The notes under the pieces were generated by a model. That model was not told the DNA's origin and did no database searches. It saw nothing but the letters and a program-made list of their open reading frames with translations. A DNA stretch of 64,000 nucleotides from contig NZ_CADEPL010000056.1 of NCBI RefSeq assembly GCF_902829295.1, forward strand, positions 1 through 64,000, written 5' to 3'. Every line of letters starts with the position of its first letter. Positions within the stretch are counted from its first letter, which is position 1. Both the position numbers and the translations under genes were made by a program. This document shows positions 1 to 64,000 of the stretch, piece by piece. Origin of the DNA: Vogesella oryzae (GTDB lineage: Bacteria > Pseudomonadota > Gammaproteobacteria > Burkholderiales > Chromobacteriaceae).

Positions 1-697
1 CCAGCACATCAGCCTGTTCGTGGCCGGGGTGAAGGACAAGGTCAGCCTCAAACTGATCGCCGCCAAGGGCAAGGTGCAGTTGCAGGCGCAGAGCGATGCG
101 ATGGAGCTGACGGCGGATAAGGATGTGGCCATCAGCAGCCTGAGCGCCAGCCAGCTGTTCAACGGCAAGAAAGAGGTGCTACTGACCTGCGGCGGCGCCT
201 ACATCTGCATCAAGGACGGCAAGATCGAACTGCACGCGCCGGGCAAGGTGAGCTTCAAGGGCGGCAGCCACGACTGGAGCGGGCCGGCGAAGATGACTCC
301 GGCCCATCCGTCCTTTCCGCAGCATGCGCCGACATTCCCGCTCAGCATCAAGGTCGACCAGTCGCCACTGGGCGTGAAGAGCGGTTGGGGCGGCATGCCC
401 TACAAGCTGTATGCCGATGGCGCCTTGCAGGGCGAAGGCGTGATAGACGAACAAGGGCACATTCAGGTGGAGCATCGCGTACCGGTACAGAAATACAAGT
501 TGGAGCTGGCCAATGGCGTGGTGTACGACATTCCGGTTGCCGTGGATTACCACAACCCGGCGCAGGGTGATGCGGCGAATGCCGGCTTTCACAAGCACAT
601 TGCCGGACCTGCACCAGACGGTGGTCGTGACGAGCACCAGGCATCGGCGCGTGAAGACTTTCTGGCGCTGTTCAAACCGGCAGACAAGGGCGAATAA
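1..697 (+). CDS. vgrG: Type VI secretion VgrG spike protein, C-terminal part (gene starts before the window)
   Basis: The reading frame is open from the left edge and ends in TAA at 695-697, so only the last 231 or so residues are present. The first part (HISLFVAGVKDKVSLKLIAAKG onward in short beta-repeats such as KGKVQLQAQSDAMELTADKD and GAYICIKDGKIELHAPG) matches the DUF2345 beta-helix extension typical of VgrG proteins. After about residue 105 a further domain (PLSIKVDQ, GMPYKLYADGALQGEGVID, YKLELANG) looks like a transthyretin-type beta-sandwich; in known VgrGs such domains help dock a phospholipase effector. The phospholipase gene begins 2 bases after the stop, which fits that role. The N-terminal gp27/gp5-like domains cannot be seen here. 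Confidence 0.9.
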   Translation, partial: QHISLFVAGVKDKVSLKLIAAKGKVQLQAQSDAMELTADKDVAISSLSASQLFNGKKEVLLTCGGAYICIKDGKIELHAPGKVSFKGGSHDWSGPAKMTPAHPSFPQHAPTFPLSIKVDQSPLGVKSGWGGMPYKLYADGALQGEGVIDEQGHIQVEHRVPVQKYKLELANGVVYDIPVAVDYHNPAQGDAANAGFHKHIAGPAPDGGRDEHQASAREDFLALFKPADKGE

Positions 698-699
698 GC

Positions 700-2691
700 A
701 TGGGAACCAAGATCAAAACGCCGATTGCGGCCAACCAGGGCCTGCAATGCACCATCACCCCGCCATGGTTTGTGCAGCAATCGGAATACACCCCGCTGAA
801 CGGCACTTTCGATTTCCTGATCAATGGCGAGCGCGCGTTTGGGGAAGTGCACCACGCCATCGCTGCAGCAAAACAGTCCGTTTGCATCATTTGCTGGGGC
901 TTTCAGCCATCGATGTATTTCATTCGTGATGGCAAATCGCCATCGATAGGCCAATTACTGGAACAGAAAGCCGCGGATGGCGTGAAAGTGCGGGTGCTGT
1001 GCTATGTGGTGGGCAATGATTACGCGACCAGCTTGACTGGATTCTCAATGGACGAGCCAAACATGCCGAACCGGTCAGGCCCTTACACCACCGGTTACAA
1101 GGATGTGCCAGCCACCAGCAGCAGGGAACAGAACAAGTTCGACAGTCATTGGTTTAGCCGCTACGACCGAGATCGCGGCAAGGCGCAAACACTGACAAAA
1201 GCCGCGCAGAATGTTCTTGGGGACAAACAGGTCAAGAATCTGATTTTCCGGGTAAGGGGATTTTCTGCCGCGGACCGCGCCTATCTTGCCAATCAGGAAT
1301 TCGAAGACAAAAAGGTCTCCGGCACCATGCGAACCGTACTGTCGGCCTTCCCCAGCCATCACCAGAAAATGGTGCTGGTGGATTACGGTAGCCCGAGTGA
1401 GCACGTTGGCTTTGTCATGGGGCACAACATGCTGGACGAGTATTGGGATACCTGTGCGCACAGCTACCACCGTAGAACAGCGAATACCGGACGAAACGGC
1501 ACGCTGCCACGAGAAGATCTTTCCAGTCGGGTAACAGGCCCGATTTGTGGCGCCCTGTTTCGTAATTTCGCCCAAGCCTGGGAAAAAGAAACCGGCGAAA
1601 GCCTGGACAAGCCGAGTACCGGCTTTGCCCACTATCCGCTACGCGAAGCATTGGGCAAGAAAATCCAGGGACAGATTCTGCGTACTCAGCCGCAGTACCG
1701 GGCGGAAGACATCAAGAAGGCCTATCTGCAGGCGGTAAGCAATGCCACTCAATGCATCTATGTCGAGAACCAGTATTTTCGCTGGCCGCCACTGGCAGAC
1801 AGGATCAAGCAGGCGGCTGCCAAACAATGCCAATGGGGGCGAGACCCAGCCAGCCATCAATCACTCTATCTGTTCGTGGTAACCAATAGCAGTGATGGCG
1901 GCATGGGGTCGGGAACGGTCAAGACTCAGGAAATGCTCAGCAGTCTTGGCCGGGCCGATGTCATGCCCGGTGTCGAGCTGCAAAACCGTATCCAGGATCA
2001 GACCACCGCCATTAACCAGGCTGAAAACCGGCTACGCCAGTACGATGCCAGCCTGGGCAAGGTAGCAAGTGCCCTGCCCAACCCCGCTGTCTTCAAGGGT
2101 GGCAAATACCCGCCCGCCTGGCTGCGGGACCCGAGAACCCGCGAACTGCTTGAAAAGCATAACCAGCTGGCCAGCCAGCGCGACCGGCTGCAACAGGAAA
2201 AAGACAAGATGCAAAAAGACCTGGAGCTGCTGGGCGCCAGGAGCGAAGACAAGCTCGGCCAGAAAATGAAAGCCGCCGAGGCCATCGTGCCGGAAGAACG
2301 CCCCGGTCTGAAGGTGCACATCTGTACCCTGGTGCCCCCAGACACCCCGGCAGGGGTTGCCTGGCCCGAGATATACGTGCACAGCAAGCTGCTGCTGGTC
2401 AACGATACCTACATGACGCTGGGCAGCGCCAACATCAATACCCGTAGCATGGAAGTGGACAGCGAGCTGAATGTTGCGCACTGCAACCCGCATATCAGTC
2501 GCCAGGCACGGCTGGACTTGTGGAACATCCATACCGGAGGCAAGGGAGCACAGGAGGATGTGAGTGAGGCGTTCAAGTCTTGGGAATGGATTATCGACGA
2601 AAACAAACGGCGCGAGCCACGAAAACAGGCTCCCCAAGCATCTCTACGAGGCTTTCTACGTTTCGACCCCACCCAATCCAACAAGGACTGA
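700..2691 (+). CDS. Phospholipase D-family T6SS effector (Tle5-like)
   Basis: This 663-residue protein has two phospholipase D motifs: HQKMVLVD at residues 221-228, and HSKLLLVN at 561-568 followed by GSANINTRS. The pair defines the PLD superfamily, which hydrolyses phosphodiester bonds of phospholipids. Placed directly after vgrG and before a Sel1 lipoprotein, it fits the Tle5 class of antibacterial lipase effectors delivered by VgrG. Two things are unusual. The segment between the motifs, about residues 425-520, is rich in Q/E/K/R heptads (NQLASQRDRLQQEKDKMQKD) and probably forms a coiled coil. The last Asp of the second HxKx4D motif is Asn. There is no signal peptide, as expected for T6SS cargo. 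ATG 700 is the natural start, 2 bases after the vgrG stop. Function is inferred from motifs and context. Confidence 0.85.
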   Translation: MGTKIKTPIAANQGLQCTITPPWFVQQSEYTPLNGTFDFLINGERAFGEVHHAIAAAKQSVCIICWGFQPSMYFIRDGKSPSIGQLLEQKAADGVKVRVLCYVVGNDYATSLTGFSMDEPNMPNRSGPYTTGYKDVPATSSREQNKFDSHWFSRYDRDRGKAQTLTKAAQNVLGDKQVKNLIFRVRGFSAADRAYLANQEFEDKKVSGTMRTVLSAFPSHHQKMVLVDYGSPSEHVGFVMGHNMLDEYWDTCAHSYHRRTANTGRNGTLPREDLSSRVTGPICGALFRNFAQAWEKETGESLDKPSTGFAHYPLREALGKKIQGQILRTQPQYRAEDIKKAYLQAVSNATQCIYVENQYFRWPPLADRIKQAAAKQCQWGRDPASHQSLYLFVVTNSSDGGMGSGTVKTQEMLSSLGRADVMPGVELQNRIQDQTTAINQAENRLRQYDASLGKVASALPNPAVFKGGKYPPAWLRDPRTRELLEKHNQLASQRDRLQQEKDKMQKDLELLGARSEDKLGQKMKAAEAIVPEERPGLKVHICTLVPPDTPAGVAWPEIYVHSKLLLVNDTYMTLGSANINTRSMEVDSELNVAHCNPHISRQARLDLWNIHTGGKGAQEDVSEAFKSWEWIIDENKRREPRKQAPQASLRGFLRFDPTQSNKD

Positions 2692-2693
2692 AT

Positions 2694-3767: not shown

Positions 3768-3922
3768 GCTTTCGCTGTTCATGTCACCTGCGACTGCCGT
3801 TGCGGCCAACCTTGGCCGCAACCTCCCCGCCGCCGACGGCTATCCCCGACCATCTGGAACAGCAGCTTGTCTTTACCTGCCACGATGCACATACGCGTAA
3901 TCCTGTAATCCGGAATACCTGA
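3764..3922 (+). pseudogene. Truncated second copy of the Sel1 immunity gene (N-terminal remnant)
   Basis: A short 52-codon frame starts at ATG 3764, overlapping the stop of the Sel1 gene, and ends with TGA just before tssF. Its middle (TAIPDHLEQQLVFTCHDAHT) closely matches the mature N-terminus of the preceding lipoprotein (TAIPNKLEQQLTFSCSHEQA), and the DNA shares the run CTGGAACAGCAGCTT. All Sel1 repeats are missing. It therefore looks like what is left of a duplicated immunity gene. Whether the short frame is still translated is unknown; it has no recognisable signal peptide. A paired copy of the TGCGGCCAAC word sits inside it at 3800-3821. Confidence 0.7.
3800..3821. repeat. Paired TGCGGCCAAC word (inverted repeat)
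   Basis: TTGCGGCCAA and TTGGCCGCAA face each other across two C bases, a perfect 10 bp inverted repeat built from two copies of the window-wide word. It lies within the immunity-gene remnant, upstream of tssF. Confidence 0.9.
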
Positions 3923-3923: not shown

Positions 3924-5780
3924 ATGCTCGAATCCCTCCTCCCTTATTACGAACGCGAGCTCGGCCATCTGCGCGAGCTGTCGGGCGAGTTCGCCCGGCG
4001 TTACCCCAAGATTGCCGGCCGGCTGCAGCTGGAAGGCGACCAGTGCGAAGACCCGCATACCGAGCGGCTGATCGAGGCGTTCGCCTTTTTGACGGCGCGG
4101 GTGCACAAGAAGCTGGATGACGACTACCCGGAGGTGGCCACCAGCTTTCTGGACGTGATGTACCCGCACTATCTGCAGCCGATGCCGGCGGCCACCGTGG
4201 TGCAGTTCGAGTGCGATGCGCAGCGGCCGGAGATCGGCAAGCGCTACCGCATCGAGCGCGGGCAGCAGGTGTTGGCGCCGGCCATCCAGGGGGTAAGTTG
4301 CAAGTTCCGCAGCGTGTATCCGGTGGATCTGTACCCGCTGCAACTGCAGGAAGCCAAGCTGGAACTGACCAGCGGCTCGCCCTATCTGCGCAGCCTGGCG
4401 CCGGATGCGGCGGCGGTGCTGACGCTGCGGCTGCAGACCCAGGGTGGGGTAGCGCTGAATGCCATCGATCTGCAATCGCTGCGCTTTTTCCTGGACGGGG
4501 AACCGGCGCTGATGCACCTGCTGTACGAGATGCTGCTGTCCAATGTGCTGCGGCTGCAGGTGGGAGATGGCAGCGAGGACCCGGTACGCACGCGCATGTT
4601 GGCCGCAGACAGCCTGCAGGCGGTGGGCTTTGGTGCCGACGAGGGCATGCTGGAGTACGACGAGCGCTCTTTCCTCGGCTACCGGCTATTGTCGGAATAC
4701 TTCAGCTATCCGGACAAATTCCTGTTTATCGACCTGCTCAATCTGGCGCCGTTGGTGGCCCGGCTGCAGGGCGATACGCTGCTGCTGCGCATCCAGCTGC
4801 GCGACTACCCGGATAGCGAGCGTCATCACCGTTTGCAAAGCCAGTTGCAGCCGGCGCACTTCAAGCTGGGTTGCACGCCGCTGATCAACCTGTTTACCCA
4901 GCCGGGCGAGCCGATCCGCGTCACGCACCAGAAAAGCAGTTACCCGGTGCTGGCCGACGGGCGAAAACAGCTTTCCTACGAGGTGGTAAATATCCGCCGC
5001 GTGGTGCGGGTGGAGAAATCCGGCGAAGGCGACAGCAGTGAAGAGGTGCCGCCGTTCTACGCAACGCGCCACGGCAGTGGCAAGACGCCGCGTTTCTACT
5101 GGCATGCCACGCGCGAGCCATCGGTGCGCCAGGGCGACCGCGGCACAGACATGGCGTTGCACCTGGTGGACCTGCAGTTCGACGCGGTGCGTCCGGCTGG
5201 CGAGGTGTTGAGTCTGGAACTGCTGTGCAGCAACCGCGATCTGCCGGAGCAGATTCCGTTTGGCGGCAGTCAGGCCAGCCAGCGTACCGATCTGCAGCTG
5301 CCGGGACACTCGGTGGTGAAGCGTGTACGCCTGTTGCGCAAGCCTGGCGCCAGCCAGCGCAGCCCGCTGGGACGGGCATTGCAGTGGCGGTTGATCTCGC
5401 ATCTGTCGCTCAACTACATGTCCATTGTCGATGCCGGGCGCGAGGCGCTGCAGGAAATGCTCACGCTGTACAACCTGGGCGAAGCAGCGGCCAACGTGCG
5501 GCAGATCCAGGGCATTGTCGGCATCAGCAGCCAGCCGGCGGTGCAGCGCGTCAGTGGCCGCCACTTCGCCGGCTTCGTGCGCGGCACCGAGATCACGCTG
5601 ACGCTGGACGCCGACTACTACGTCGGCGGCAGCGTCTACCTGTTTGCCTCGGTGCTGGAGCGTTTCTTTGCGCTGTACTGCGCGCCGAACAGCTTTACCC
5701 GGCTGCGGGTGCATACCGTACAGCACGACGCTGTGGTGGCCAGCTGGCCGGCCCGCGCCGGTGAAGCACTGGTGATCTGA
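3924..5780 (+). CDS. tssF: Type VI secretion baseplate subunit TssF
   Basis: The 618-residue product has the TssF/VasA/ImpG family opening (LLPYYERELGHLRELSGEFA, then YPKIAGRLQL, DPHTERLIEAFAFLTARV and SFLDVMYPHYLQPMPA) and is of family length. TssF forms the T6SS baseplate wedge with TssG, TssE and TssK and helps recruit the VgrG/Hcp tube in the cytoplasm. It is followed by tssG after 9 bases with a GGAG ribosome site, the usual tssF-tssG order. The ATG at 3924 directly precedes the conserved MLESLLPYYE start. A copy of the TGCGGCCAAC word occurs at 4598 (reverse) and 5487. Confidence 0.97.
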   Translation: MLESLLPYYERELGHLRELSGEFARRYPKIAGRLQLEGDQCEDPHTERLIEAFAFLTARVHKKLDDDYPEVATSFLDVMYPHYLQPMPAATVVQFECDAQRPEIGKRYRIERGQQVLAPAIQGVSCKFRSVYPVDLYPLQLQEAKLELTSGSPYLRSLAPDAAAVLTLRLQTQGGVALNAIDLQSLRFFLDGEPALMHLLYEMLLSNVLRLQVGDGSEDPVRTRMLAADSLQAVGFGADEGMLEYDERSFLGYRLLSEYFSYPDKFLFIDLLNLAPLVARLQGDTLLLRIQLRDYPDSERHHRLQSQLQPAHFKLGCTPLINLFTQPGEPIRVTHQKSSYPVLADGRKQLSYEVVNIRRVVRVEKSGEGDSSEEVPPFYATRHGSGKTPRFYWHATREPSVRQGDRGTDMALHLVDLQFDAVRPAGEVLSLELLCSNRDLPEQIPFGGSQASQRTDLQLPGHSVVKRVRLLRKPGASQRSPLGRALQWRLISHLSLNYMSIVDAGREALQEMLTLYNLGEAAANVRQIQGIVGISSQPAVQRVSGRHFAGFVRGTEITLTLDADYYVGGSVYLFASVLERFFALYCAPNSFTRLRVHTVQHDAVVASWPARAGEALVI

Positions 5781-6872: not shown

Positions 6873-9500
6873 ATGTCGGTACCTTTGAAATCCCTGATCG
6901 AACGCCTTACACCTGCTGCTCGCCGGTGCGTGGAACAGGCGGCCAGTCGTGCCTTGGCGCGGACACACTTCGAAATCGAGATCGAGCATGTGCTGCTGAC
7001 CTTGCTGGACGAGAACGATAATGCCGCCATTGCCGCACTGCAGGCCGGTGGCGTGGATATTCCCGTTTTGCAACAGGCGCTGGAGCGGGCACTGGATGGT
7101 TTCCGCAGCGGCAACAGCCGTAACCCGGTGCTGTCGGCGTGGTTGCCAAAATGGCTGGAGAAAGCCTGGTTGCTGGCCAGCGCGGAATTCGGACAGGACA
7201 GCGTCTCTACCCTCGACCTGCTGCTGGCGTTGCTGCGTGACGAGAGTTTGCGCCCGGCCGTGCAAAGCGGCTGCCCGACGCTGTTGCAGCTGGATGCCGG
7301 CCGGCTGCTGCCGGCCTATGCCGCGTTACGCCAGCATGGCGGCGAGTCGGCCGAAGGCGGGCCGGCTGGCGCGGATCCGGCGGCGGCACCAGTCACGGCC
7401 GCCAAGGTACGGGGCGGGGCTGCGCTGGACAAGTACACCATCGATCTTACTGCCCAGGCCCGAGCCGGCAAGATCGACCCGGTGCTGGGGCGCGAGGTAG
7501 AAATCCGCCAGATGATCGACATCCTGATGCGCCGCCGGCAGAACAATCCCATCCTCACCGGCGAGCCTGGCGTGGGCAAGACCGCGGTGGTGGAAGGGCT
7601 GGCGCGCAAGATCGTGCACGGCGAGGTACCGCCGGTGCTGACCGGTGTGGCGCTGCGCACACTGGACCTGGGCCTGCTGCAGGCCGGCGCCAGCGTCAAG
7701 GGCGAGTTCGAGAACCGCCTGCGCCAGGTGATCGATGAGGTCAAGGCCAGTCCGGTGCCCATCATCCTGTTCATCGACGAGGCGCATACCCTGATCGGCG
7801 CCGGCGGTGCCGCCGGGCAGAACGATGCGGCCAACCTGTTGAAGCCGGCGCTGGCGCGTGGCGAGTTGCGTACCATCGCCGCTACCACCTGGGCGGAATA
7901 CAAGAAGTACTTCGAGAAAGACGCCGCACTGGCGCGTCGTTTCCAGGTGGTGAAGGTGGAGGAGCCGGCACCGGAGATCGCGGTGCAGATGGTGCGCGGC
8001 CTGGCGCAGGCCATGGCCGAGCACCACCAGGTGGAGATTCTGGAAGAGGCGGTAGCGGCGGCAGTACACCTGTCCAGCCGCTACATCACCGGCCGTCAGT
8101 TGCCGGACAAAGCCATCAGTGTGCTCGACACCGCCTGCGCCCGCGTGGCGCTGTCTCGTGCCGGCAAACCGGGGCCGGTCGAGGATGTGGCCGTGCTGAT
8201 CGCCAACGTGGAGCGCGAGATTGCCGCATTGCAGCGCGAGGAAGGTCATGGCGAGAGAATCGACGAGCTGGAAGCCCGCCGCGAGCAGCTGCAGGATGAT
8301 CTGGCGCAATTGCATGCCGCCTGGCAGACGCAGCAGCAACTGGTCGCCGAGATCGATGCTGCTCGCCAGCAGCCAGCTGAGAGCAAAGGCGGCAAAACCC
8401 GCAAGGCCAGCCCGTTGCAGAGCAAACGCAAGGCATTGCGCGAGCTGCAGCAGACGCAGCCACTGGCGTTCGAGTGCGTGGATGAAAACGTGATCGCCGA
8501 CGTGATAGCCGGCTGGACCGGCATTCCGCTGGGCCGCATGGTTAGCAACGAACTGGCGCAGGTGCAGCGCCTGGCTACCCTGCTGGGCGAGCGGGTGATC
8601 GGTCAGGACCACGCGCTGCGGCAGATTGCCGAGCGGGTGCAGATCGCCAAGGCCGGGCTGGAAGACCCGGGCAAGCCCAAGGGCGTGTTCCTGCTGGTGG
8701 GGCCGTCCGGCGTGGGCAAGACCGAAACCGCGCTGGCGCTGGCCGAGGCGCTGTACGGCGGCGAGCGCAATCTGGTCACCATCAATATGTCGGAATACCA
8801 GGAGGCGCACAGCGTATCCGGGCTGAAAGGCTCGCCGCCGGGCTATGTCGGCTATGGCGAGGGCGGTGTGCTCACCGAGGCAGTGCGGCGCAAGCCTTAT
8901 TCGGTGGTGTTGCTGGATGAAGTGGAAAAAGCGCACCCGGACGTGCTGGAGCTGTTCTTCCAGGTATTCGACAAGGGCGTGCTGGAAGACAGCGAAGGCC
9001 GCGAGGTGGACTTCAAGAACACCATCATCCTGCTCACCTCCAACGCCGGCACTGAGCTGGTGATGCGCGCCTGCGAACACGGCGTGACGGTGGAAGGCGA
9101 AACCCGCGCTCCTGGCGCCGAAGACCTGGTGGAAGTGCTGCGGCCAACCTTGCAGCAGGTGTTCAAACCTGCCTTCCTCGGCCGGCTGGACATCGTGCCT
9201 TACTTCCCGATCAGCGACGACGTACTGCATGCCATCGTGCAACTGAAGTTGGAGCGTATCCGTCGCCGCATTGCCGACAATCACGGCGCACAAGTGGAGT
9301 TCCCGGACGAGTTGGCCGCGACCATGGCCGCGCGCTGTCTGGACGTGGACAGCGGTGCCCGCAACGCCGATGCCATCCTCACCCGTACTCTGCTGGCGCA
9401 AATCTCCAGCGATCTGCTGGCGCGCATGGCCAGCGGCAAACCGGTGAAGAAGATTGCCGTGGCGCTGAAAGGCGAGGCGCTCAAGGTACGTGTGAGCTAA
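6873..9500 (+). CDS. clpV: Type VI secretion sheath-recycling ATPase ClpV/TssH
   Basis: This is an 875-residue class I AAA+ unfoldase. It has an N-terminal Clp-N domain, a first ATPase domain with Walker A GEPGVGKT (about residue 230) and Walker B FIDEAH (about 300), a middle domain of coiled-coil character (about 430-540), and a second ATPase domain with GPSGVGKTE (about 610) and LLDEVEKAH (about 680). ClpV disassembles contracted TssB/TssC sheaths in the cytoplasm. Location after tssF-tssG separates it from housekeeping ClpB, as do the extended N-terminus and middle region. The TGCGGCCAAC word occurs at 7827, 9140 and (reverse) 9311. Confidence 0.96.
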   Translation: MSVPLKSLIERLTPAARRCVEQAASRALARTHFEIEIEHVLLTLLDENDNAAIAALQAGGVDIPVLQQALERALDGFRSGNSRNPVLSAWLPKWLEKAWLLASAEFGQDSVSTLDLLLALLRDESLRPAVQSGCPTLLQLDAGRLLPAYAALRQHGGESAEGGPAGADPAAAPVTAAKVRGGAALDKYTIDLTAQARAGKIDPVLGREVEIRQMIDILMRRRQNNPILTGEPGVGKTAVVEGLARKIVHGEVPPVLTGVALRTLDLGLLQAGASVKGEFENRLRQVIDEVKASPVPIILFIDEAHTLIGAGGAAGQNDAANLLKPALARGELRTIAATTWAEYKKYFEKDAALARRFQVVKVEEPAPEIAVQMVRGLAQAMAEHHQVEILEEAVAAAVHLSSRYITGRQLPDKAISVLDTACARVALSRAGKPGPVEDVAVLIANVEREIAALQREEGHGERIDELEARREQLQDDLAQLHAAWQTQQQLVAEIDAARQQPAESKGGKTRKASPLQSKRKALRELQQTQPLAFECVDENVIADVIAGWTGIPLGRMVSNELAQVQRLATLLGERVIGQDHALRQIAERVQIAKAGLEDPGKPKGVFLLVGPSGVGKTETALALAEALYGGERNLVTINMSEYQEAHSVSGLKGSPPGYVGYGEGGVLTEAVRRKPYSVVLLDEVEKAHPDVLELFFQVFDKGVLEDSEGREVDFKNTIILLTSNAGTELVMRACEHGVTVEGETRAPGAEDLVEVLRPTLQQVFKPAFLGRLDIVPYFPISDDVLHAIVQLKLERIRRRIADNHGAQVEFPDELAATMAARCLDVDSGARNADAILTRTLLAQISSDLLARMASGKPVKKIAVALKGEALKVRVS

Positions 9501-9512: not shown

Positions 9513-10919
9513 ATGCTGAAACTGCTGGCCCTGCTGGGCCTGTCTACCTTGCTGTGGTGGGCGGCGTTGTGGCTGCTCATCCCGGTGAACTGGCAACAAG
9601 TCAGCCCGACTGCCATGTTGCTGCTGCACCTGCTGCCGCCGCTGTTGTTGACGGCGTTGGCCTTTTTCTGGCGACAGCGCCGCCTGCGCCAGGAGCAGGC
9701 AGCCGCCAAGGCGCAGGCGGATGCCGACGCTGCCATCTTGCAGTCGCAGCGCGATGAAGCGCGCGCACAGCATCTGCATGCATTGCAACAGCGGCAACAG
9801 GTAGTGCATTGCCGCTGGCTGTGGGTGCAGGCGCTGCCGCAGCGCGACGAGCCGGCCTGGCTGGCAGAGCTGCCGGATGCGTGCGCATGGGAGCTGCTGG
9901 CAAACGACGACCTGGAAACCGGCGAGGTGCTCGATAGCCTGCAACAGAGCGCCGCTGCCGGTCTGGAAGCGCTGTACGCCGAACTGCCGGGGGCCGCGGC
10001 CTTGCCGCTGCTGCTGGAAGTGCTGCCCGGAACCAGCGGTGTGGAACAGGTTGGCCGCATCAAGCAGTGGCAGCAACAGGCATGGCAACAGCTGCACGGC
10101 GATATGCCACCTCCGGCCAGCGATTGTCGCTTCCTGCCGGGGAGTGGCACGGTAGCCGATCGCGTGCAGCAGTTCCTGGCGCAGGATCCGGAGCTGCCGG
10201 GGGCGGTACTGCTGTCGCTGGATGCACCGCGGGCGGCATGGGATCCGGATGACGAGGCCGACGCCACGACCCGGCAACAATGGCGGGAGCAGGGGCGCCC
10301 CGGCGCCGCAGTCGTATTGATGTTGTTCCTGCGTGACGGGCTGAGTGCGGTAGAGGGCGATATGCAAGCCTTGGCGGCTGATCCCTATCAGCCGTACTGG
10401 GAGCGCGACCCGGCCGGTGCCAGTGCCGGTTGGGGGCGGGTGCCGGCTGGCGCGCAGCAAGCGCTGGCAGCTTTGCCGCTGCTCGGCTGCCTGGCGCAAT
10501 CCGCCCAGGGAGTACCGGGACGGGTGGGGACGCTGCAGCTTACCCGGCAGTTGCAGCCGTTGCTGGACAACGCGCTGGTGAATGCCAGCCTGCTGGATTT
10601 CCCTTTCAGCGCCGAAGATGCGGACCCGGCACGCAACCAGGCCGACAGTGTGGCCTGGCTGGTGCATAACGGTGGCGATGTGGATGTCGGCGGTGTGCGC
10701 ATGGCGGCCATCGGCAGCAATCTTTCCCGCCACCAGATCGGGCTCGATCTGGTGGAAGAAGCCAGCAATCTGGTGCGCGAATGGGGAGATGTCGGCGCGG
10801 CCGCGCCAGCACTGCTGGCGGCATTGGCGGTCAGCCACTGTGCCCGCTTGTCCGCACCGGCCGTGCTGGCGCAGTTTCAACATGATCATGCCGCATTGGG
10901 GCTGGTACGGCCGGCCTGA
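9513..10919 (+). CDS. Unrecognised membrane-anchored protein in the T6SS cluster
   Basis: I do not recognise the family of this 468-residue protein. Two hydrophobic segments near the N-terminus (about residues 3-24 and 33-52) suggest an inner-membrane anchor. A Gln/Ala/Arg-rich helical stretch (about 55-95) follows, then a long soluble part rich in Ala, Leu and Gln. A C-terminal block (NLSRHQIGLDLVEEASN, LLAALAVSHCARL) looks globular. It lies 12 bases after clpV and 12 bases before the PAAR gene, so it is almost certainly in the T6SS operon. It is neither TssJ, TssL nor TssM by sequence. A structural accessory or effector-handling role is possible but not shown. Confidence 0.6.
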   Translation: MLKLLALLGLSTLLWWAALWLLIPVNWQQVSPTAMLLLHLLPPLLLTALAFFWRQRRLRQEQAAAKAQADADAAILQSQRDEARAQHLHALQQRQQVVHCRWLWVQALPQRDEPAWLAELPDACAWELLANDDLETGEVLDSLQQSAAAGLEALYAELPGAAALPLLLEVLPGTSGVEQVGRIKQWQQQAWQQLHGDMPPPASDCRFLPGSGTVADRVQQFLAQDPELPGAVLLSLDAPRAAWDPDDEADATTRQQWREQGRPGAAVVLMLFLRDGLSAVEGDMQALAADPYQPYWERDPAGASAGWGRVPAGAQQALAALPLLGCLAQSAQGVPGRVGTLQLTRQLQPLLDNALVNASLLDFPFSAEDADPARNQADSVAWLVHNGGDVDVGGVRMAAIGSNLSRHQIGLDLVEEASNLVREWGDVGAAAPALLAALAVSHCARLSAPAVLAQFQHDHAALGLVRPA

Positions 10920-12306: not shown

Positions 12307-12315
12307 GTTGGCCGC
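12307..12315 (-). repeat. Single intergenic copy of GCGGCCAAC (reverse)
   Basis: GTTGGCCGC lies 8 bases after the tssA stop, in the gap before dusA. It is followed by GC-rich inverted sequence (CCCTCCCGGGGCCGGG) without a T run, so termination here is uncertain. Confidence 0.85.
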
Positions 12316-15869: not shown

Positions 15870-15878
15870 GCGGCCAAC
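15870..15878 (+). repeat. Single intergenic copy of GCGGCCAAC
   Basis: One copy (TGCGGCCAACGC) lies in the 214-base gap between ridA and the LysE-type gene. Apart from this and the terminator I see no other feature in that gap. Confidence 0.85.
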
Positions 15879-47671: not shown

Positions 47672-47680
47672 GTTGGCCGC
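47672..47680 (-). repeat. Single intergenic copy of GCGGCCAAC (reverse)
   Basis: GTTGGCCGCAG lies four bases past the metK terminator, upstream of the ahcY promoter. Confidence 0.85.
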
Positions 47681-49339: not shown

Positions 49340-49357
49340 GCGGCCAACGTTGGCCGC
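49340..49357. repeat. Perfect palindrome of two word copies
   Basis: GCGGCCAACGTTGGCCGC is a perfect 18 bp palindrome of the 9-base word and its complement, starting at the last base of the ahcY terminator T run. Confidence 0.95.
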
Positions 49358-50266: not shown

Positions 50267-50284
50267 TGCGGCCAACCTTGCCGC
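50267..50284. repeat. Imperfectly paired word copy after metF
   Basis: TGCGGCCAACCTTGCCGC carries the full extended word plus a partial inverse (one base short), between the metF stop and its terminator. Confidence 0.8.
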
Positions 50285-52379: not shown

Positions 52380-52862
52380 TTATTGTCCCAGATGCGAGAT
52401 CGGCAGTGCGGTGGTTTTCTTGAACTCTTTCAGCACGAAGCTGGATTTGACGTCCTCGACGCCCGGCTGCTGCAGCAGATCATCCATCACGAAGCGCGAG
52501 AAGTGCTCCAGATCTTCAAAGTACACCTGCAGCAGGTAATCCATTTCGCCGGTCATGGCGTAACAGTTCACCACTTCCGGCCAGCGTTGTACCGCTTCCA
52601 TGAAGTTTTCCAGGTGGCCACCGCCACGTTTTTCCAGCGATACGCGGACAAAAGCCTGCAGGCCGAGGCCGATTTTGGCTGGCTCCAGCAGGGCCACGTA
52701 CTGGCGGATGACGCCGGATTCTTCCAGCTGTTTCAGGCGGCGCAGGCAGGGTGAGGGGGAGAGGGCTACTTTTTCAGCCAGTTCGACGTTGGTCAGGCGT
52801 CCATTGGCTTGTAATGCGGCCAACATCTTGATGTCGGTCTTGTCCAGTGTTGCCACGGGCAT
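52380..52862 (-). CDS. Lrp/AsnC-family transcriptional regulator
   Basis: The 160-residue protein has an N-terminal winged helix-turn-helix (LDKTDIKMLAALQANGRLTN, VELAEKVALSPSPCLRRLKQ, about residues 6-60) and the C-terminal RAM ligand-binding domain (LEKRGGGHLENFMEAVQRWP, YAMTGEMDYLLQVYFEDLEH). It is divergent from hpd, so it likely senses an aromatic amino acid or a derivative and controls tyrosine breakdown. Target and effector are inferred from position only. Confidence 0.93.
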   Translation of the reverse strand: MPVATLDKTDIKMLAALQANGRLTNVELAEKVALSPSPCLRRLKQLEESGVIRQYVALLEPAKIGLGLQAFVRVSLEKRGGGHLENFMEAVQRWPEVVNCYAMTGEMDYLLQVYFEDLEHFSRFVMDDLLQQPGVEDVKSSFVLKEFKKTTALPISHLGQ

Positions 52863-54373: not shown

Positions 54374-54401
54374 TGGCCGCAGCATCCGTGCTGCGGCCAA
54401 C
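54374..54401. repeat. Paired word copy between hpd and maiA
   Basis: TGGCCGCAGCA and TGCTGCGGCCA form a perfect 11 bp inverted repeat around TCCG; the right arm carries GCGGCCAAC. There is no T run, so it is a hairpin rather than a clear terminator. Confidence 0.85.
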
Positions 54402-54429: not shown

Positions 54430-55089
54430 ATGACTGATCTCACCAACGTTGGCCGCACGCTGTTCGGCTACTTCCGTTCCTCTGCCGCCTATCGGGTGCG
54501 TATTGCCCTCAATCACAAGGGGCTGGCTTACCGGCAGCAGCCGGTCAGCCTGGTCAGGGGCGAGCAACGCAGCGAAGACTATTTGGCGCTGAATCCGCAA
54601 GGGCTGGTGCCGGCATTGCTGGATAACGGCGTGCTGCTTACCCAGTCGCTGGCGATCTGCGAGTACCTCGACGAAGCCTATCCGCACACGGCAGCATTAT
54701 TGCCAACCGCCGCGGCGATGCGGGCGCGGGTACGTGCCGCGGCGCAAAGCATTGCCTGCGACATCCATCCGCTGAATAACCTGCGGGTACTCAACTATCT
54801 GAAGAACGAGCTGCAGCAGCCGGAAGAGGCGCGCAATGCCTGGTACCGGCACTGGCTGCAGGAAGGCTTTGCCGCGCTGGAGCTGCAGTTGGCTGATAGC
54901 GCCGGCCAGTACTGTTTTGGCGATGACATTACGCTGGCTGATGTATGCCTGCTGCCGCAGGTCTTCAACGCACGGCGTTTCAATGTGGAGATGGCGCCAT
55001 ATCCGCTGCTGGCCGCGATTGCCGACCGCCTGGAGCTGCTACCCGCTTTTGCCGCGGCGCACCCGGCGCAACAGCCGGACGCGGTATAA
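54430..55089 (+). CDS. maiA: Maleylacetoacetate isomerase (zeta-class GST family)
   Basis: The 219-residue protein has the thioredoxin-like N-terminal domain with the zeta-class motif FRSSAAYRVRIALNHKGL (SSxxxRVRIAL; catalytic Ser-Ser), NPQGLVPALLDNGVLLTQSL for glutathione binding, and the helical C-terminal domain with SIACDIHPLNNLRVLNYL. It isomerises maleylacetoacetate to fumarylacetoacetate, two steps after Hpd. ATG 54430 is used as the conserved fold starts soon after. The window-wide word overlaps its start region at 54448 (reverse). Confidence 0.93.
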   Translation: MTDLTNVGRTLFGYFRSSAAYRVRIALNHKGLAYRQQPVSLVRGEQRSEDYLALNPQGLVPALLDNGVLLTQSLAICEYLDEAYPHTAALLPTAAAMRARVRAAAQSIACDIHPLNNLRVLNYLKNELQQPEEARNAWYRHWLQEGFAALELQLADSAGQYCFGDDITLADVCLLPQVFNARRFNVEMAPYPLLAAIADRLELLPAFAAAHPAQQPDAV

Positions 55090-55210: not shown

Positions 55211-55286
55211 GGCCAATTAGCTCAGTTGGTAGAGCAACGGATTGAAAATCCGTGTGTCCTTGGTTCGATTCCGAGATTGGCCACCA
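55211..55286 (+). tRNA. tRNA-Phe (anticodon GAA), first copy
   Basis: A 76-base cloverleaf with acceptor arms GGCCAAT/ATTGGCC, anticodon stem ACGGA/TCCGT around loop TTGAAAA (anticodon GAA), T-arm GGTTCGATTCC and encoded CCA. Confidence 0.98.
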
Positions 55287-55307: not shown

Positions 55308-55383
55308 GGCCAATTAGCTCAGTTGGTAGAGCAACGGATTGAAAATCCGTGTGTCCTTGGTTCGATTCCGAGATTGGCCACCA
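55308..55383 (+). tRNA. tRNA-Phe (anticodon GAA), second copy
   Basis: Identical in all 76 bases to the first copy, 21 bases downstream; both share one promoter and terminator. Confidence 0.98.
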
Positions 55384-57262: not shown

Positions 57263-60046
57263 TTATTGGCTATCGTCGGCGGTCTTTTCCTTGCGGTTGG
57301 AGCCGGCAACCAGTTCGAAGCCATAGACGTGGCAGGCCAGCGGGCCGTTGAACAGCTGCGGGCGGCTGCTGGTGGACAGGCGCATCAGCGACGGCAGGCG
57401 GCTATCGGCGGTCATGAAGTGTGCGTGCCAGCCGGCAAAGTTGCGCTTCAGCCAGGTAGCCAGCTGCGGGTACAGCTCGGCCAGGCTCTCCTGTTCGTCC
57501 AGGCGCACACCGTACGGCGGGTTGCACACCATCAGGCCGTTGGCGGCGGGTGCGGCCAACGTGGTGGCATCGGCGCAGCTCAGGGTAACCAGCTGCTCGA
57601 TGTCGGCGCGCGCCAGATTGCGGCGGGTGATCTCTACCAGCTGCGGGTCGCGGTCGTTGCCGAACAGCGGCAGGGCGGCCAACTTGCGCTGTGCCAGCTC
57701 GGCATCGTTGCGGATGCTGTGCCACAGCAGGTCGTTATGGCCTTTCAGCTGTTCGAAGCCGAAGCGGCGGGCGCGGCCCGGGGCGCGGTTCATGGCGATG
57801 TCTGCAGCTTCTACCAGGAAGGTGCCGCTGCCGCACATCGGGTCCAGCAATGGCTGGCTGCCGGTGTAGCCGGCCAGCAGCAGAATGCCGGCGGCCAGAT
57901 TCTCGCGCAGCGGTGCCTCGCCGGTTTCTTCGCGCCAGCCGCGCTTGAACAGCGCTTCGCCGCTGGTGTCGAGGTAGATCTGCACGTCAAAGCCGGAGAT
58001 GAACACGCGGATGCGCATGTCCGGATGGCGGGTGTCGACGCTGGGGCGCTCGCCGCAGGCTTCGCGGAACCGGTCGCAGATGGCGTCTTTTACCAGCAGC
58101 GAGACGTAGTCCATGCTGCGCAGGCGCGAGTGACCATCGGTATTGACCTTGATGGTGCAGCCGACCTCGAACAGTGCCGGCCAGTCGATGCCGTGGGCCA
58201 GGGTGTAAATGTCGCGCTCTTCCTGGAAGCTGCCTTGCGCCAGTTGCATCAGCACGCGGCTGGCCACGCGCGAATGCAGGTTGACCCGCATCATCACTTC
58301 ACGGTTGCCGATGAAGGCGATGCCGCCATCGGTCAGCTGCAGCTCGCTGCCGCCTTGCAGGCTGATCTCGTCGGCCAGGATTTTTTCCAGGCCGCGCGGG
58401 CAGCTGGCAAATAGCGCCAGCTCGTTTTCCTGCAGGGCGCGGAACTGGGTTTTGACAAACGGCGTGCGGCCAACCTTGCCGCCGGTGTCATTGCCGGTGC
58501 TCTGGCCTTTGCCGAACAGCGTGCGCGGCTGCTCGCCTTCGCGCTTGAAGCCGTCGTCGCGGCGCTCGCCGCCGAAGCGCGGTTTGTCCTCGCCACCGAA
58601 GCGCGGCTTGTCGGCGCCATGGCGTGGGCGATCGAAATCGCGGTCGCCGCGTGGCTGGAAGCCGCCTTCACGACGTTCGCCGCCAAAGCGCGGTTTGTCG
58701 TCGCCACCGAAGCGTGGCTTGTCGCTGCCATGACGCGAACGATCGAAGTCGCGTTCGCCGCGCGGCTGGAACTCGCCTTCGCGCTTGAAGCCGCCTTCAC
58801 GACGCTCGCCGCCAAAGCGCGGTTTGTCCTCGCCACCGTAGCGCGGCTTGTCGCTGCCGTAACGCGGGCGGTCAAAGTCGCGTTCGGCGCGCGGCTGGGC
58901 GGCGCTGTTCTGGCTGCTGCTGTTGTCCGCTGCATCGTCGCTTACGCGTTTCAGAAAGCTGGTGCCGCTGCGTGGCGCGGCGGCAGGCGGGTTGGCCGCA
59001 GGGGCCTCTTCGCGAACCGGCGGGGCAACGTAATCCGGGTGGGCCTTGCCGCCACGGCCGGCGACGCGATCGCGGGGATAGCGACGCTCCGGCTGGGCTT
59101 CTTCACTGGCCGGGGCCGCTGGCGTAATCGTCTTGCCGCCAAACAGCGTGCGCGGTTTGTCGATGGCGTGATCGCCACGCGGCTGGAATTCGTGGCGCTG
59201 TTGTGAGCTGCTGTCGCGCTTCAGGCCATCGTTATGGCGGAAACCGCCTTCGCGGTGTTCGTTGCTGTAGCGCGGCTTGTCGACGTTGCCTTCGCTGCGC
59301 GGTTTGAACTCTCCTTCGCGCTTGAAGCTGCCTTCACGGTGCTCGTTGTTGTAGCGCGGCTTGTCGAAATTGCGCTCGCCGCGCGGCTGGAACTCGCCTT
59401 CGCGCTTGAAACCGCCTTCGCGACGCTCGCCGCCGCCGAAGCGTGGTTTGTCGTCGCCGCCAAAGCGTGGCTTGTCGAAATTACGCTCGCCGCGCGGCTG
59501 GAACTCGCCTTCGCGCTTGAAACCGCCTTCGCGACGTTCGTTGCCGGCAAAGCGTGGTTTGTCGTCGCCGCCGAAACGCGGCTTGTCGAAATTGCGTTCG
59601 CCTTCGCGCTTGAAGCCACCTTCACGACGCTCGCCGCCGCCGAAACGTGGTTTGTCGTCGCCAGCGAAACGCGGCTTGTCGAAATTGCGTTCGCCTTCGC
59701 GCTTGAAGCCGCCTTCACGACGCTCGTTGCCGCCAAAGCGTGGTTTGTCCTCGCCGCCGAAACGCGGCTTGTCGAAATTGCGTTCGCCTTCGCGCTTGAA
59801 GCCGCCTTCGCGACGTTCGTTGCCAGCAAAGCGTGGTTTGTCGTCGCCGCCGAAACGCGGCTTGTCGAAATTGCGTTCGCCTTCGCGCTTGAAGCCACCT
59901 TCGCGACGCTCGCCGCCAAAGCGCGGTTTGGCCGGAGCCTGCCCTGCCGCTGGCGTCTGGTGCCCGCTGGGGGGCGCGTTACGCTCGGTGGGCGTGGTGG
60001 GCTGTCGGCGCACGGAAGCGCGCTGGCGGGAACGGAAGGTGGACAT
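57263..60046 (-). CDS. rlmL: 23S rRNA guanine-N2 methyltransferase-type protein (RlmL-like) with a long Arg/Gly-rich repeat N-terminus
   Basis: The 927-residue protein has two parts. The last about 380 residues are an RNA methylase: a THUMP region (LFASCPRGLEKILADEISLQ, about 553 on), then KVNTDGHSRLRSMDYVSLLV, LLDPMCGSGTFLVEAADIAM (SAM site) and the catalytic MVCNPPYGVRL. This matches the RlmL/YcbY N-terminal half that methylates G2445 of 23S rRNA; the RlmK half is absent. The first about 540 residues are low complexity: repeated units like RREGGFKREGERNFDKPRFG in two blocks (about residues 40-270 and 385-510), highly charged and probably disordered. ATG 60046 (MSTFRSRQR) has an AAAGGA ribosome site; a TTG eight codons upstream is less likely. 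The gene symbol is by similarity of the catalytic part. Confidence 0.85.
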   Translation of the reverse strand: MSTFRSRQRASVRRQPTTPTERNAPPSGHQTPAAGQAPAKPRFGGERREGGFKREGERNFDKPRFGGDDKPRFAGNERREGGFKREGERNFDKPRFGGEDKPRFGGNERREGGFKREGERNFDKPRFAGDDKPRFGGGERREGGFKREGERNFDKPRFGGDDKPRFAGNERREGGFKREGEFQPRGERNFDKPRFGGDDKPRFGGGERREGGFKREGEFQPRGERNFDKPRYNNEHREGSFKREGEFKPRSEGNVDKPRYSNEHREGGFRHNDGLKRDSSSQQRHEFQPRGDHAIDKPRTLFGGKTITPAAPASEEAQPERRYPRDRVAGRGGKAHPDYVAPPVREEAPAANPPAAAPRSGTSFLKRVSDDAADNSSSQNSAAQPRAERDFDRPRYGSDKPRYGGEDKPRFGGERREGGFKREGEFQPRGERDFDRSRHGSDKPRFGGDDKPRFGGERREGGFQPRGDRDFDRPRHGADKPRFGGEDKPRFGGERRDDGFKREGEQPRTLFGKGQSTGNDTGGKVGRTPFVKTQFRALQENELALFASCPRGLEKILADEISLQGGSELQLTDGGIAFIGNREVMMRVNLHSRVASRVLMQLAQGSFQEERDIYTLAHGIDWPALFEVGCTIKVNTDGHSRLRSMDYVSLLVKDAICDRFREACGERPSVDTRHPDMRIRVFISGFDVQIYLDTSGEALFKRGWREETGEAPLRENLAAGILLLAGYTGSQPLLDPMCGSGTFLVEAADIAMNRAPGRARRFGFEQLKGHNDLLWHSIRNDAELAQRKLAALPLFGNDRDPQLVEITRRNLARADIEQLVTLSCADATTLAAPAANGLMVCNPPYGVRLDEQESLAELYPQLATWLKRNFAGWHAHFMTADSRLPSLMRLSTSSRPQLFNGPLACHVYGFELVAGSNRKEKTADDSQ
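58530..58890 (-). repeat. Second repeat block inside rlmL
   Basis: About four imperfect in-frame units of the type DKPRFGG-DDKPRFGG-ERREGGF-(KREGE)FQPRGERDFDRPRHGS. The units are recognisable as tandem DNA repeats too (GCCGCCGAAGCGCGGTTTGTC and variants). Confidence 0.9.
59230..59930 (-). repeat. First repeat block inside rlmL
   Basis: About seven imperfect in-frame units of 29-36 codons (ERREGGFKREGE, NFDKPRFGG, DDKPRFAGN), decaying at the C-terminal side into NEHREGSFKREGEFKPRSEG. High DNA identity between units suggests recent expansion. Confidence 0.92.
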
Positions 60047-60130: not shown

Positions 60131-61228
60131 ATGGCCGGTTCGATTTTCAACCGGCGATGGTGTTTGGCAGTGGAACAGCAATTCGCCCCGCGGCTGATAG
60201 CCTGGCAAAAAGACCATGGGCGACACGGTCTGCCTTGGCAAGTGAGTGACCCGTACCGGGTGTGGCTGTCGGAAATCATGCTGCAGCAGACCCAGGTCAG
60301 CACCGTGCTGGGCTACTACCCGCGCTTCCTGCAGCGCTTTCCGGATCTGGCAACGTTGGCCGCAGCGCCGGTCGATGACGTGCTAGCGTACTGGAGCGGC
60401 CTCGGCTACTACACGCGTGCCCGCAACCTGCACAAGGCCGCGCAAAAGGTGGTCAGCGAGTTTGGCGCCGTTTTTCCTGCCGAACGGGAGGCGATCGAGA
60501 CCTTGCCAGGCATCGGCCGCTCCACCGCGGCCGCCATTGCCGCCTTCTGCTTTGGCCGGCGCGAGACCATTCTTGATGGCAACGTGAAACGGGTGCTGGC
60601 CCGCTGTTTTGGCGTGGAAGGCTATCCCGGTGACAAGCCGGTCGAGACACAGCTGTGGCAACTGGCCGAGCGGCTGTTGCCGGCCGATAATCTCGACATG
60701 GTGCCGTATACCCAGGGGTTGATGGACCTAGGGGCGACGGTTTGTACCCGCAGCAAGCCGGTTTGCACGCTGTGTCCGATGGTGGATGGCTGTATTGCCG
60801 CCCGCGACGGACGCACCGCCGAATTGCCGGTAAAAAAACCTAAGAAAGCGGTGCCGGAACGCGAAACGGTGATGCTGCTGGCGCTACGCGATGGCGAGGT
60901 ATTGCTGGAGCGTCGCCCGCCAAGCGGTATCTGGGGCGGCCTGCTGTCGCTACCGCAGTTCGATTCCACGCTGGCGATCGTCGACTGGCTGGCGGCCAAC
61001 GGTGAGGGCGATCTGGCGCCGGCCTGGCCACCGCTGGTGCATGTATTTACCCATTTTAAATTAACGATTACGCCCCAATGTGTGGAGCTGGTGCGCTTGT
61101 CGGGCGACGTCTGTGCCGACAACGGCTGGCAATGGTGGCCGCTGGCCACGGCGCTGGATGCCGGGGTGCCGGCACCGGTACGCCGTTTGCTACAACAGGC
61201 GCTGGATGGTGCCGTTCCGGCGGAATGA
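60131..61228 (+). CDS. mutY: A/G-specific adenine DNA glycosylase
   Basis: The 365-residue repair enzyme removes A mispaired with 8-oxo-G. Features: LPWQVSDPYRVWLSEIMLQQ with the catalytic Glu, LGYYTRARNLH, helix-hairpin-helix ETLPGIGRSTAAAIAAFCFG followed by the catalytic Asp in ILDGNVKRVLAR, the 4Fe-4S site CTRSKPVCTLCPMVDGC, and a C-terminal NUDIX-like domain (MLLALRDGEVLLERRPPSGI) that reads 8-oxo-G. The start is uncertain: ATG 60131 is used; GTG 60170 (VEQQFAPRLIAW) would fit family length slightly better. It is divergent from rlmL. Word copies at 60355 (reverse) and 60992. Confidence 0.95.
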   Translation: MAGSIFNRRWCLAVEQQFAPRLIAWQKDHGRHGLPWQVSDPYRVWLSEIMLQQTQVSTVLGYYPRFLQRFPDLATLAAAPVDDVLAYWSGLGYYTRARNLHKAAQKVVSEFGAVFPAEREAIETLPGIGRSTAAAIAAFCFGRRETILDGNVKRVLARCFGVEGYPGDKPVETQLWQLAERLLPADNLDMVPYTQGLMDLGATVCTRSKPVCTLCPMVDGCIAARDGRTAELPVKKPKKAVPERETVMLLALRDGEVLLERRPPSGIWGGLLSLPQFDSTLAIVDWLAANGEGDLAPAWPPLVHVFTHFKLTITPQCVELVRLSGDVCADNGWQWWPLATALDAGVPAPVRRLLQQALDGAVPAE

Positions 61229-61240
61229 GTTTGCAGCGGC

Positions 61241-61249
61241 GTTGGCCGC
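61241..61249 (-). repeat. Single intergenic copy of GCGGCCAAC (reverse)
   Basis: GTTGGCCGCAAGG lies in the 37-base gap between mutY and relA. Confidence 0.85.
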
Positions 61250-61265
61250 AAGGTTGGATTGATAC

Positions 61266-63476: not shown

Positions 63477-63494
63477 CCGGACGCACGACAAAAC

Positions 63495-63518
63495 GTTGGC
63501 CGCATGGCTGCGGCCAAC
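63495..63518. repeat. Paired word copy between relA and deoC
   Basis: GTTGGCCGCA and TGCGGCCAAC form a perfect 10 bp inverted repeat with a TGGC loop; the right arm continues CTTGCAGG, the extended form. No T run follows. Confidence 0.95.
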
Positions 63519-63536
63519 CTTGCAGGGAGAGGCAGC

Positions 63537-64000
63537 ATGCAGGATGCGATTGCTACGGCGCGGCTGGCGCTCAGCCTGATGGATCTCACCAGCCTGAACG
63601 TGGACGACAGTGGCGACACTATACGCACCTTGTGTGCCGCTGCCGGCAGTGATGCCGGTATCGTCGCGGCGGTGTGCGTCTATCCGCGGCTGGTGGCCGC
63701 GGCGCGCCAGGCGCTGGCCGAGTATGGTGTGCCGCAGGTACGGGTGGCGACTGTGGTCAATTTTCCGCACGGCGATGCCGACGTCGCCGCGGCCGCGGCG
63801 GAAACCCATACCGCCATCGCCGCCGGTGCCGACGAGGTGGATGTGGTGTTTCCGTATCGCGCGCTACTGGCTGGCGAGGCCGAAGTTGGCGCCGCGCTGG
63901 TGGCCGCCTGCAAGGCAGCATGCGGCGAGCGGCTACTGAAAGTGATCATCGAAAGCGGCGAACTGGCTACGCCGGAGCGGATTCGCCAAGCCAGTGACAT
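63537..64000 (+). CDS. deoC: Deoxyribose-phosphate aldolase, N-terminal part (gene runs past the window)
   Basis: The frame from ATG 63537 stays open to the window edge (154 codons). It shows DeoC blocks: [20 protein letters not shown] at the start (MDLTSL form), [53 protein letters not shown] and [20 protein letters not shown]. DeoC splits 2-deoxyribose 5-phosphate into glyceraldehyde 3-phosphate and acetaldehyde. The Schiff-base lysine lies beyond the edge. A GGGAGAGG ribosome site precedes the ATG. Confidence 0.93.

Follow-up and report, generated by a model that had tools for sequence, protein, structure and literature searches.

Candidate DNA uptake sequence dialects with a changed core in Vogesella and other Chromobacteriaceae, probably read by ComP-type minor pilins

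Eight dialects of the DNA uptake sequence (DUS) have been reported in Neisseriaceae, all of them with a CTG core described as conserved and essential, and as needed by N. meningitidis (Frye et al. 2013, PMC3630211). In Neisseria, the DUS-binding pilin is ComP (Berry et al. 2016, PMC4906244). Frye et al. 2013 (PMC3630211) held that DUS arose only once the lineage had parted from C. violaceum, where BLAST found no ComP, and saw no obvious DUS in five genomes of Chromobacterium's group. The uptake signal sequence of Pasteurellaceae is likewise an abundant short self-word and works alike by analogy, but PMC4906244 describes it as having neither a ComP homologue nor a resemblance to DUS motifs. Here we analyse a 64-kb stretch of the Vogesella oryzae genome (contig NZ_CADEPL010000056.1, positions 1-64,000, forward strand; hereafter the window), in which a preliminary description made from the sequence alone had noticed an abundant word, the 9-mer GCGGCCAAC or 10-mer TGCGGCCAAC. 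NCBI taxonomy groups Vogesella with Chromobacterium, Aquitalea, Paludibacterium and others in Chromobacteriaceae, Neisseriales, and we assume that the family grouping of genomes used below equals NCBI Chromobacteriaceae. With a probability of roughly four in five, we take the word and its relatives in sister genera to be new DUS dialects in Chromobacteriaceae, probably read by ComP orthologues. Among the literature matches listed (titles and starts of abstracts), none reports such a word in Vogesella or Chromobacteriaceae; in the literature on uptake sequences, the core GTTGGCCG was unmatched and CGGCCAAC matched once, as a primer. The novelty lies in DUS-type dialects whose core is altered and which come from a family without any such report in the literature searched.

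Abundance and placement of the word in Vogesella

The two strands of the window hold 57 copies of GCGGCCAAC, 33 forward and 24 reverse, compared with a mean of 1.78 and a maximum of 6 in 100 dinucleotide-preserving shuffles and with 3.1 expected from an order-2 Markov model. For TGCGGCCAAC, 37 copies are seen where the same model expects 0.70. The strong over-representation claimed in the preliminary description is therefore real, and its list of copies proved exact at 32/32 forward and 24/24 reverse positions, although a forward copy at 21346 had been overlooked (57 copies, not about 56). A T precedes most forward copies (24/33), as had been remarked, with the matching A at 13/24 reverse copies. 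The earlier estimate of about 17 intergenic copies was also right: 17 of the 57 lie in gaps that make up 8.8% of the window (binomial p 5e-6), genes and gaps being placed here by a simple codon-based gene model made for this analysis. The neisserial 10-mer GCCGTCTGAA, of which no copy had been seen by eye, has 0 occurrences in the window.

A genome-wide count and a comparison with related genomes, both suggested at the outset, give the same picture. The genome of the window (G000; 3,415,129 bases in 58 contigs) carries 1,163 + 1,110 = 2,273 copies of TGCGGCCAAC, one per 1.5 kb or 0.67% of the genome, versus 6 + 7 = 13 copies of a reversed control. In a sample of 420,715 bases, consisting of the window and 20 stretches of G000 (one of them, of 1,558 bases, all N), 274 copies were found vs. 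3.4 expected from an order-3 model, an enrichment of about eightyfold. Across a family set of 61 genomes from ten genera (Vogesella and nine sister genera, g2-g10), TGCGGCCAAC reaches 1,871-2,895 copies in 13/13 Vogesella genomes and only 8-58 copies in the 48/48 genomes of the sister genera, making the word genus-wide in Vogesella.

The word is most frequent outside genes. In the 420,715-base sample, 107 of 272 cleanly placed copies of TGCGGCCAAC are intergenic while intergenic DNA makes up 12.6% of the sample, and the intergenic density is 4.5 times the coding density. Convergent gaps have the highest density of the 9-mer (46 copies in 6,852 bases, 6.7 per kb), with 3.25 per kb in co-directional gaps (79 copies) and 1.2 per kb in divergent ones (15 copies). 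These data bear on whether biased use of codon pairs or amino acids, or else a short repeat element dispersed through the genome, might produce the word, a view for which the Ala-Ala-Asn reading of 18 of the 40 coding copies in the window could be cited. The same 40 copies read as AAN, VGR, xLAA, xRPT, RWPQ and RGQL, in agreement with the earlier view that a word read in several frames is no single protein motif, and all six reading frames are used by the coding copies of the larger sample. The preliminary description had named codon-pair bias with no intergenic copies as one pattern that would undo its proposal; instead, the enrichment peaks outside genes. Two more results speak against explanations of this kind, which we regard as scarcely credible: the word is missing from sister genera of comparable GC, and its flanks are unconserved beyond about 12-14 bases.

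Both orientations are alike, as the preliminary description had stated (1,163 vs. 1,110 in G000), and there is no bias between replication strands: in 20 stretches of G059, a one-contig Vogesella genome whose sides were assigned by GC skew, 148 copies are leading and 142 lagging (p 0.77). Chi and KOPS (FtsK-orienting polar sequences) have a set direction relative to replication. A site recognised by a protein of chromosome upkeep or recombination (Chi, KOPS, a nucleoid or segregation site) could well share several traits of this word: presence throughout the genome, restriction to a genus, high density and strict conservation at most positions. The strand neutrality, the excess between convergent genes, the abutting inverted pairs and the ComP match in all 23 word-bearing genomes (see below) all argue against such a site, and we consider it very unlikely.

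The spacing of copies is near random (coefficient of variation 0.99). Where neighbours lie no more than 60 bases apart, 47 of 50 pairs in G000 are inverted, including 19 that abut as GCGGCCAACGTTGGCCGC; in G059, 22 of 24 close neighbour pairs are inverted and nine abut. AT-rich tiles carry fewer copies (1.86 vs. 4.49 per 4 kb), which we do not claim as a sign of depletion in foreign DNA because the word itself is GC-rich.

Within the window, forward copies of GCGGCCAAC lie in genes at 727-735, 5487-5495, 7827-7835, 9140-9148, 14283-14291, 15302-15310, 16598-16606, 19531-19539, 21346-21354 (the overlooked copy), 28366-28374, 30783-30791, 34199-34207, 35432-35440, 35606-35614, 36104-36112, 37957-37965, 44123-44131, 48163-48171, 52816-52824, 57552-57560, 57675-57683, 58466-58474 and 60992-61000, and between genes at 3802-3810, 15870-15878, 17995-18003, 20468-20476, 22657-22665, 44511-44519, 49340-49348, 50268-50276, 54393-54401 and 63510-63518. 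Reverse copies lie in genes at 4598-4606, 9311-9319, 10050-10058, 12059-12067, 12610-12618, 13144-13152, 15132-15140, 16175-16183, 17127-17135, 22311-22319, 22570-22578, 35701-35709, 43365-43373, 51585-51593, 54448-54456, 58991-58999 and 60355-60363, and between genes at 12307-12315, 19115-19123, 20461-20469, 47672-47680, 49349-49357, 61241-61249 and 63495-63503. Three inverted pairs occur among the intergenic copies: an overlapping one (20461 and 20468), an abutting one (49340 and 49349) and one formed by 63495 and 63510.

Dialects in the family and their likeness to neisserial DUS

A k-mer scan of stretches from the sister genera returned other words that share the core. Words with the core GTTGGCCG (reverse complement) are enriched in seven of the ten genera, and the letters that follow it differ by lineage: -CA in Vogesella, -AG in one genus and -AA in five genera, one of them by a single genome. 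The AA word TTCGGCCAAC (= GTTGGCCGAA) has 183-2,168 copies in 8 genomes of 5 genera, namely 1,245 in g7, 1,851 in g9, 2,168 and 579 in g6, 1,104, 893 and 183 in g10, and 1,368 in genome G010 of g2, with at most 78 in the remaining genomes. The AG word CTCGGCCAAC (= GTTGGCCGAG) has 1,940 and 1,590 copies in both g5 genomes, 165 in G036 and at most 92 elsewhere in the set. A word of the set is present in 23/61 genomes; the 38 word-free genomes comprise nine of ten in g2, 19 in g3 (probably Chromobacterium), four in g4 and six in g8. In this comparison, made without a species tree, each genus has one dialect, the exception being g2, where one of ten genomes has a word. That genome, G010, with 1,368 copies of TTCGGCCAAC vs. 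11-36 in its nine congeners, offers together with them a natural comparison of how the word is gained or lost. Two g8 genomes, G040 and G043, show mildly raised counts (TTCGGCCAAC 62 and 45; CTCGGCCAAC 92 and 85) and have no match to the Vogesella ComP profile described below; their counts are perhaps remnants left after receptor loss.

Outside the family, the pattern TCGGCCAACNTTG, which does not include the Vogesella letters, has at most 4 copies in each of 386 other-family genomes from a draw of 399 genomes of the order. In named genomes, counts of GTTGGCCGMR (reversed control in brackets) are 2,348 (44) in V. indigofera, 245 (115) in Paludibacterium purpuratum, 206 (100) in Chromobacterium haemolyticum, 12 (24) in Snodgrassella communis and 60 (53) in Chitinibacter sp. 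GC72. As a control for the pipeline, genomes of another family (f44) were run in the same way: the known AT/AG-DUS were recovered in five and the king/sim words in a sixth, and very AT-rich G147 yielded no uptake word. Since known neisserial words were recovered there, f44 is taken as Neisseriaceae.

The dialect set also bears on whether the word might be kept as a target of restriction or methylation that serves protection or regulation, a role to which its tight specificity over 9-10 bases and the palindromic GGCC inside it would lend themselves. Restriction targets are usually avoided in genomes, and the word is enriched about eightyfold (274 vs. 3.4). Such a role would also leave unexplained why a shared core carries other end letters in seven genera and why it is like neisserial DUS. 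In our view this makes a restriction or methylation target highly improbable.

In the neisserial register, the commonest Vogesella 12-mer is AG-GTTGGCCGCA, TGCGGCCAAC being the reverse complement of the word; in G000 the commonest 12-mer, as reverse complement, is AGGTTGGCCGCA (94/477 core hits). The commonest 12-mer of the AA genera is AGGTTGGCCGAA (7/17 core hits in g6, 9/22 in g7, 9/41 in g10 and 6/27 in G010) and that of g5 is AGGTTGGCCGAG (8/24); there is no clear 12-mer among 16 core hits in g9. We compared these words with seven neisserial dialects (wadDUS left out) on both strands and at seven offsets. AGGTTGGCCGAA agrees with AG-simDUS and with mucDUS in 9/12 letters, a level reached by 1.0% of shuffles. 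Scored by the letters that any of the seven dialects allow, the Vogesella word, which was picked after being seen as the commonest, reaches 10/12 (all but G at +5 and C at +7; 0.36% of shuffles, best of two strands). Over the dialects found here, the only letters outside those of the seven are G at +5, C at +7 and, in one genus, G at +10; Vogesella and the AA genera have A at this last position. An A-to-C change at +9 likewise distinguishes king3DUS from kingDUS (PMC3630211). As in neisserial DUS, there are about 2,000 copies of a 10-12-mer with both strands alike and an intergenic excess, the end letters vary by lineage, A is commonest at -2 and -1 is variable. The differences are that the core here is CCG rather than CTG, and that the words occur in Chromobacterium's own family, five genomes of which showed no obvious DUS in the account cited (PMC3630211). 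While the likeness of the words is moderate on its own, the shared receptor family described below makes homology with neisserial DUS likely. The preliminary description had proposed a new uptake word, and this part stands, supported by the genome- and genus-wide counts, the intergenic excess and a ComP-like pilin. Its further view of a different word in this lineage needs refining, since the word is not unrelated to neisserial DUS: in reverse complement it aligns moderately with DUS, and it is part of a dialect set in seven genera.

Conservation within the word varies. One-letter variants show no overall excess in G059 (89 seen vs. 91 expected), and number 239 vs. 97 expected in G000, mainly at +10. 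With the same script, Neisseria controls gave no excess in three of five cases and some in two; in small samples, there is some excess in g5, g6, g7, g9 and G010 and none in g10. A occupies +10 in 274/438 9-mer copies of the G000 sample vs. 290/326 of the G059 sample, and this looser +10 hints at species-level drift in specificity.

ComP-type pilins and their surroundings

The Pfam family PF16732 (ComP_DUS) was rejected as a receptor marker since it matches 234/300 genomes of the order and hence catches common PilE-like pilins. In G000, the PF16732 match lies on contig C21 and adjoins pilins that look by eye like FimT, PilV and PilW; a pilin on contig C22 was preferred to it. By searching the genus for pilins and reading stretches, a minor pilin of 138-142 residues was found in six Vogesella genomes, and a profile (A2) was built from the globular domain of these six, with the G000 pilin not among its rows. 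Against 177,635 PDB sequences, A2 finds 2NBA (9.9e-12), 2M3K (2.3e-11) and 5HZ7 (3.2e-10), the next match having an E of 0.12; the three entries are ComP structures (PMC12061091). It finds the G000 pilin at 137.5 bits and gives one match in each of 13 Vogesella genomes, so that the ComP-like minor pilins which the preliminary description had proposed to look for are present throughout the genus. The comP gene of G000 is a 141-codon GTG frame outside the window (C22:14321-14746). The V. indigofera DSM 3303 pilin (NZ_RBID01000002.1) is identical to that of G052 and matches the Pfam prepilin N-terminus N_methyl at 2.5e-7; in the G000 protein, this motif appears by eye as GFSLPE, with no model match at E 0.001.

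A family-wide profile (A4), which includes rows from word-free genera, gives 1.1e-20, 2.7e-19 and 3.6e-18 for the ComP entries of the PDB and 6e-8 for the next pilin. Over 399 genomes of the order, it scores 112-149 bits in 13 genomes of Vogesella's family, 64-97 in 11 f44 genomes, at most 63.5 in family f41 and at most 52 elsewhere; in G254, an f41 genome, 63 kb contained no uptake-like word. In a tree of 55 sequences, the ComPs of Chromobacteriaceae and f44 group together in a clade (97/90) separate from PilE-like pilins (99/94), and those of Vogesella make up a single long-branched clade (100/99); the backbone of this tree is unresolved, and long branches were flagged by the program. The family pilin resembles the ComPs of 2NBA, 2M3K and 5HZ7 in being minor, of about 140 residues and with a matching globular domain, and shares a clade with f44 ComPs. 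It differs in the long Vogesella branch and in its gene setting, which outside Vogesella is mostly beside pilX- or pilY1-like genes. A single-sequence structure model of ComP (predicted local distance difference test, pLDDT, 60.6) was too poor for a fold search. With regard to the electropositive DNA-binding face expected of a ComP receptor, domain net charge is -4 to +6 over Chromobacteriaceae ComPs and +1 to +8 in f44.

A match to A2 is present in 23/23 word-bearing and 27/38 word-free genomes (p 0.004, kinship ignored). A2 is built from Vogesella rows, and the higher scores of word-bearing genomes partly reflect nearness to Vogesella; with A4, four word-free g2 genomes score 146-149 bits, equal to the best word-bearing genome. 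In G000, comP adjoins pilMNOPQ-aroK-aroB (named by Pfam, PilQ being a secretin with AMIN domains), and a FimT/GspH-like minor pilin gene lies beside it (C22:13782-14330; L120:866-1414, +). These comP neighbours, including the FimT/GspH-cluster gene and aroB, recur in 13/13 Vogesella genomes; the cluster gene matches Pfam GspH at 5.8e-8 in G000 and 4.5e-6 in G060, with no match in G051. Outside Vogesella, ten comP-neighbour frames comprise six PilX-like, two PilY1-like, one unmatched and one second PF16732 pilin, the PilX- or PilY1-like gene preceding comP at loci L129, L130, L133, L135, L136, L127, L124 and L125. In Vogesella, comP has apparently relocated to the pilQ-aroB region. ComEC/Rec2 is over the cut-off in 57/61 genomes, including 11/13 Vogesella.

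The FimT/GspH-like pilin is a possible partner in DNA uptake. It could even be the receptor itself, or another pilin could be, with ComP having a general pilus role. Consistent with this, the cluster gene stands beside comP in 13/13 Vogesella genomes with two of three tested members FimT/GspH-like, FimT-mediated DNA uptake is the titular subject of PMC8897410, and word-free genera keep ComP orthologues, which outside Vogesella mostly follow pilX-/pilY1-like genes. On the other hand, among 30 loci compared (flanks of about 1.5 kb or less) the FimT/GspH cluster occurs only in those of Vogesella, while words occur in six more genera, and it is ComP that binds DUS in Neisseria (PMC4906244). An uptake word with a receptor other than ComP is, in our opinion, unlikely.

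The window has some other features of note. nuoL is apparently split into frames at 39009-39602 and 39618-41060 (+), the first matching the NuoL N-terminus and the second NuoL from position 205; this is either a true split or a sequence error. An RlmL-like methyltransferase frame (57263-60046, -) has an N-terminal stretch of about 540 residues, where the DNA (58482-59969) contains many repeats at a spacing of 93 or 111 bases. Two identical tRNA-Phe genes lie in tandem at 55211-55286 and 55308-55383 (+).

The uptake reading and what it means for the family

We propose that a minor pilin of the ComP type, carried by the type IV pilus, would bind the word on free DNA, and that word-bearing DNA would be pulled in through the secretin PilQ and then passed to ComEC. 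ComP is most likely the protein that binds the word. If DNA with the word is preferentially taken up and recombined, copies would accumulate genome-wide and on both strands through this molecular drive, and would be densest where they are least harmful, between genes and above all between convergent ones. Other letters at +9 and +10 in related genera would then lead each lineage to prefer its own kind of DNA.

Several results weigh against this proposal. The core is CCG in all three dialects, where CTG is expected at +6 to +8, and the Vogesella 12-mer agrees with its best neisserial dialect in 8/12 letters, a level that 8.3% of its shuffles reach. Position +10 is loose in G000, with 164 one-letter variants vs. 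15 expected, and there is a slight excess at +8 and +9. Neisserial inverted DUS pairs are described as serving as terminators (PMC1852404); the close inverted pairs here mostly have the opposite order, often abut and are without T-runs. When both strands were read, T5 followed inverted pairs no more than 12 bases apart in 1/72 readings in G000 and 1/30 in G059, and we rejected a terminator role for these pairs as T-runs almost never follow them in either genome. As to the receptor, the G000 ComP has no Pfam or NCBIfam match at E 0.001. The ComPs of N. meningitidis and N. subflava have four cysteines and a DD region (PMC4906244); four are also present in nine of 11 f44 rows (two in one, with king/sim words, and five in one), compared with two domain cysteines in 29/31 Chromobacteriaceae ComPs and three in the other two. 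With two cysteines there can be at most one disulfide, and a DD region held by two disulfides is, judging by these counts, absent from Chromobacteriaceae ComPs. ComP presence fails as a predictor of the word, since word-free genera keep the orthologue. Outside Vogesella, comP mostly lies at the place where a minor-pilin operon ends (8/10 loci), so that it could have a general pilus role there; this setting fits a pilus part and is by itself no argument for a DNA receptor. Finally, two Vogesella genomes, G057 and G058, have weak ComEC matches although each has more than 2,000 copies of the word.

How the family came to have these words is a more tentative matter. One history, for and against which we see about equal weight, is that DUS-ComP self-recognition predates the split of Neisseriaceae and Chromobacteriaceae, with the word re-lettered (CTG to CCG) and lost several times. 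ComP would then read the changed core without a second DD disulfide, and the ComPs of word-free genera would have lost the specificity or never had it. A different core in the three dialects of these seven genera, together with a ComP-like pilin in each word-bearing genome, would make the origin of DUS older, or else reveal that DUS arose a second time with a receptor of the same family. The contrasts in word presence and absence inside one family make the co-evolution of ComP and DUS testable outside pathogens, and the changed core together with fewer disulfides provides a natural test of how ComP reads DNA.

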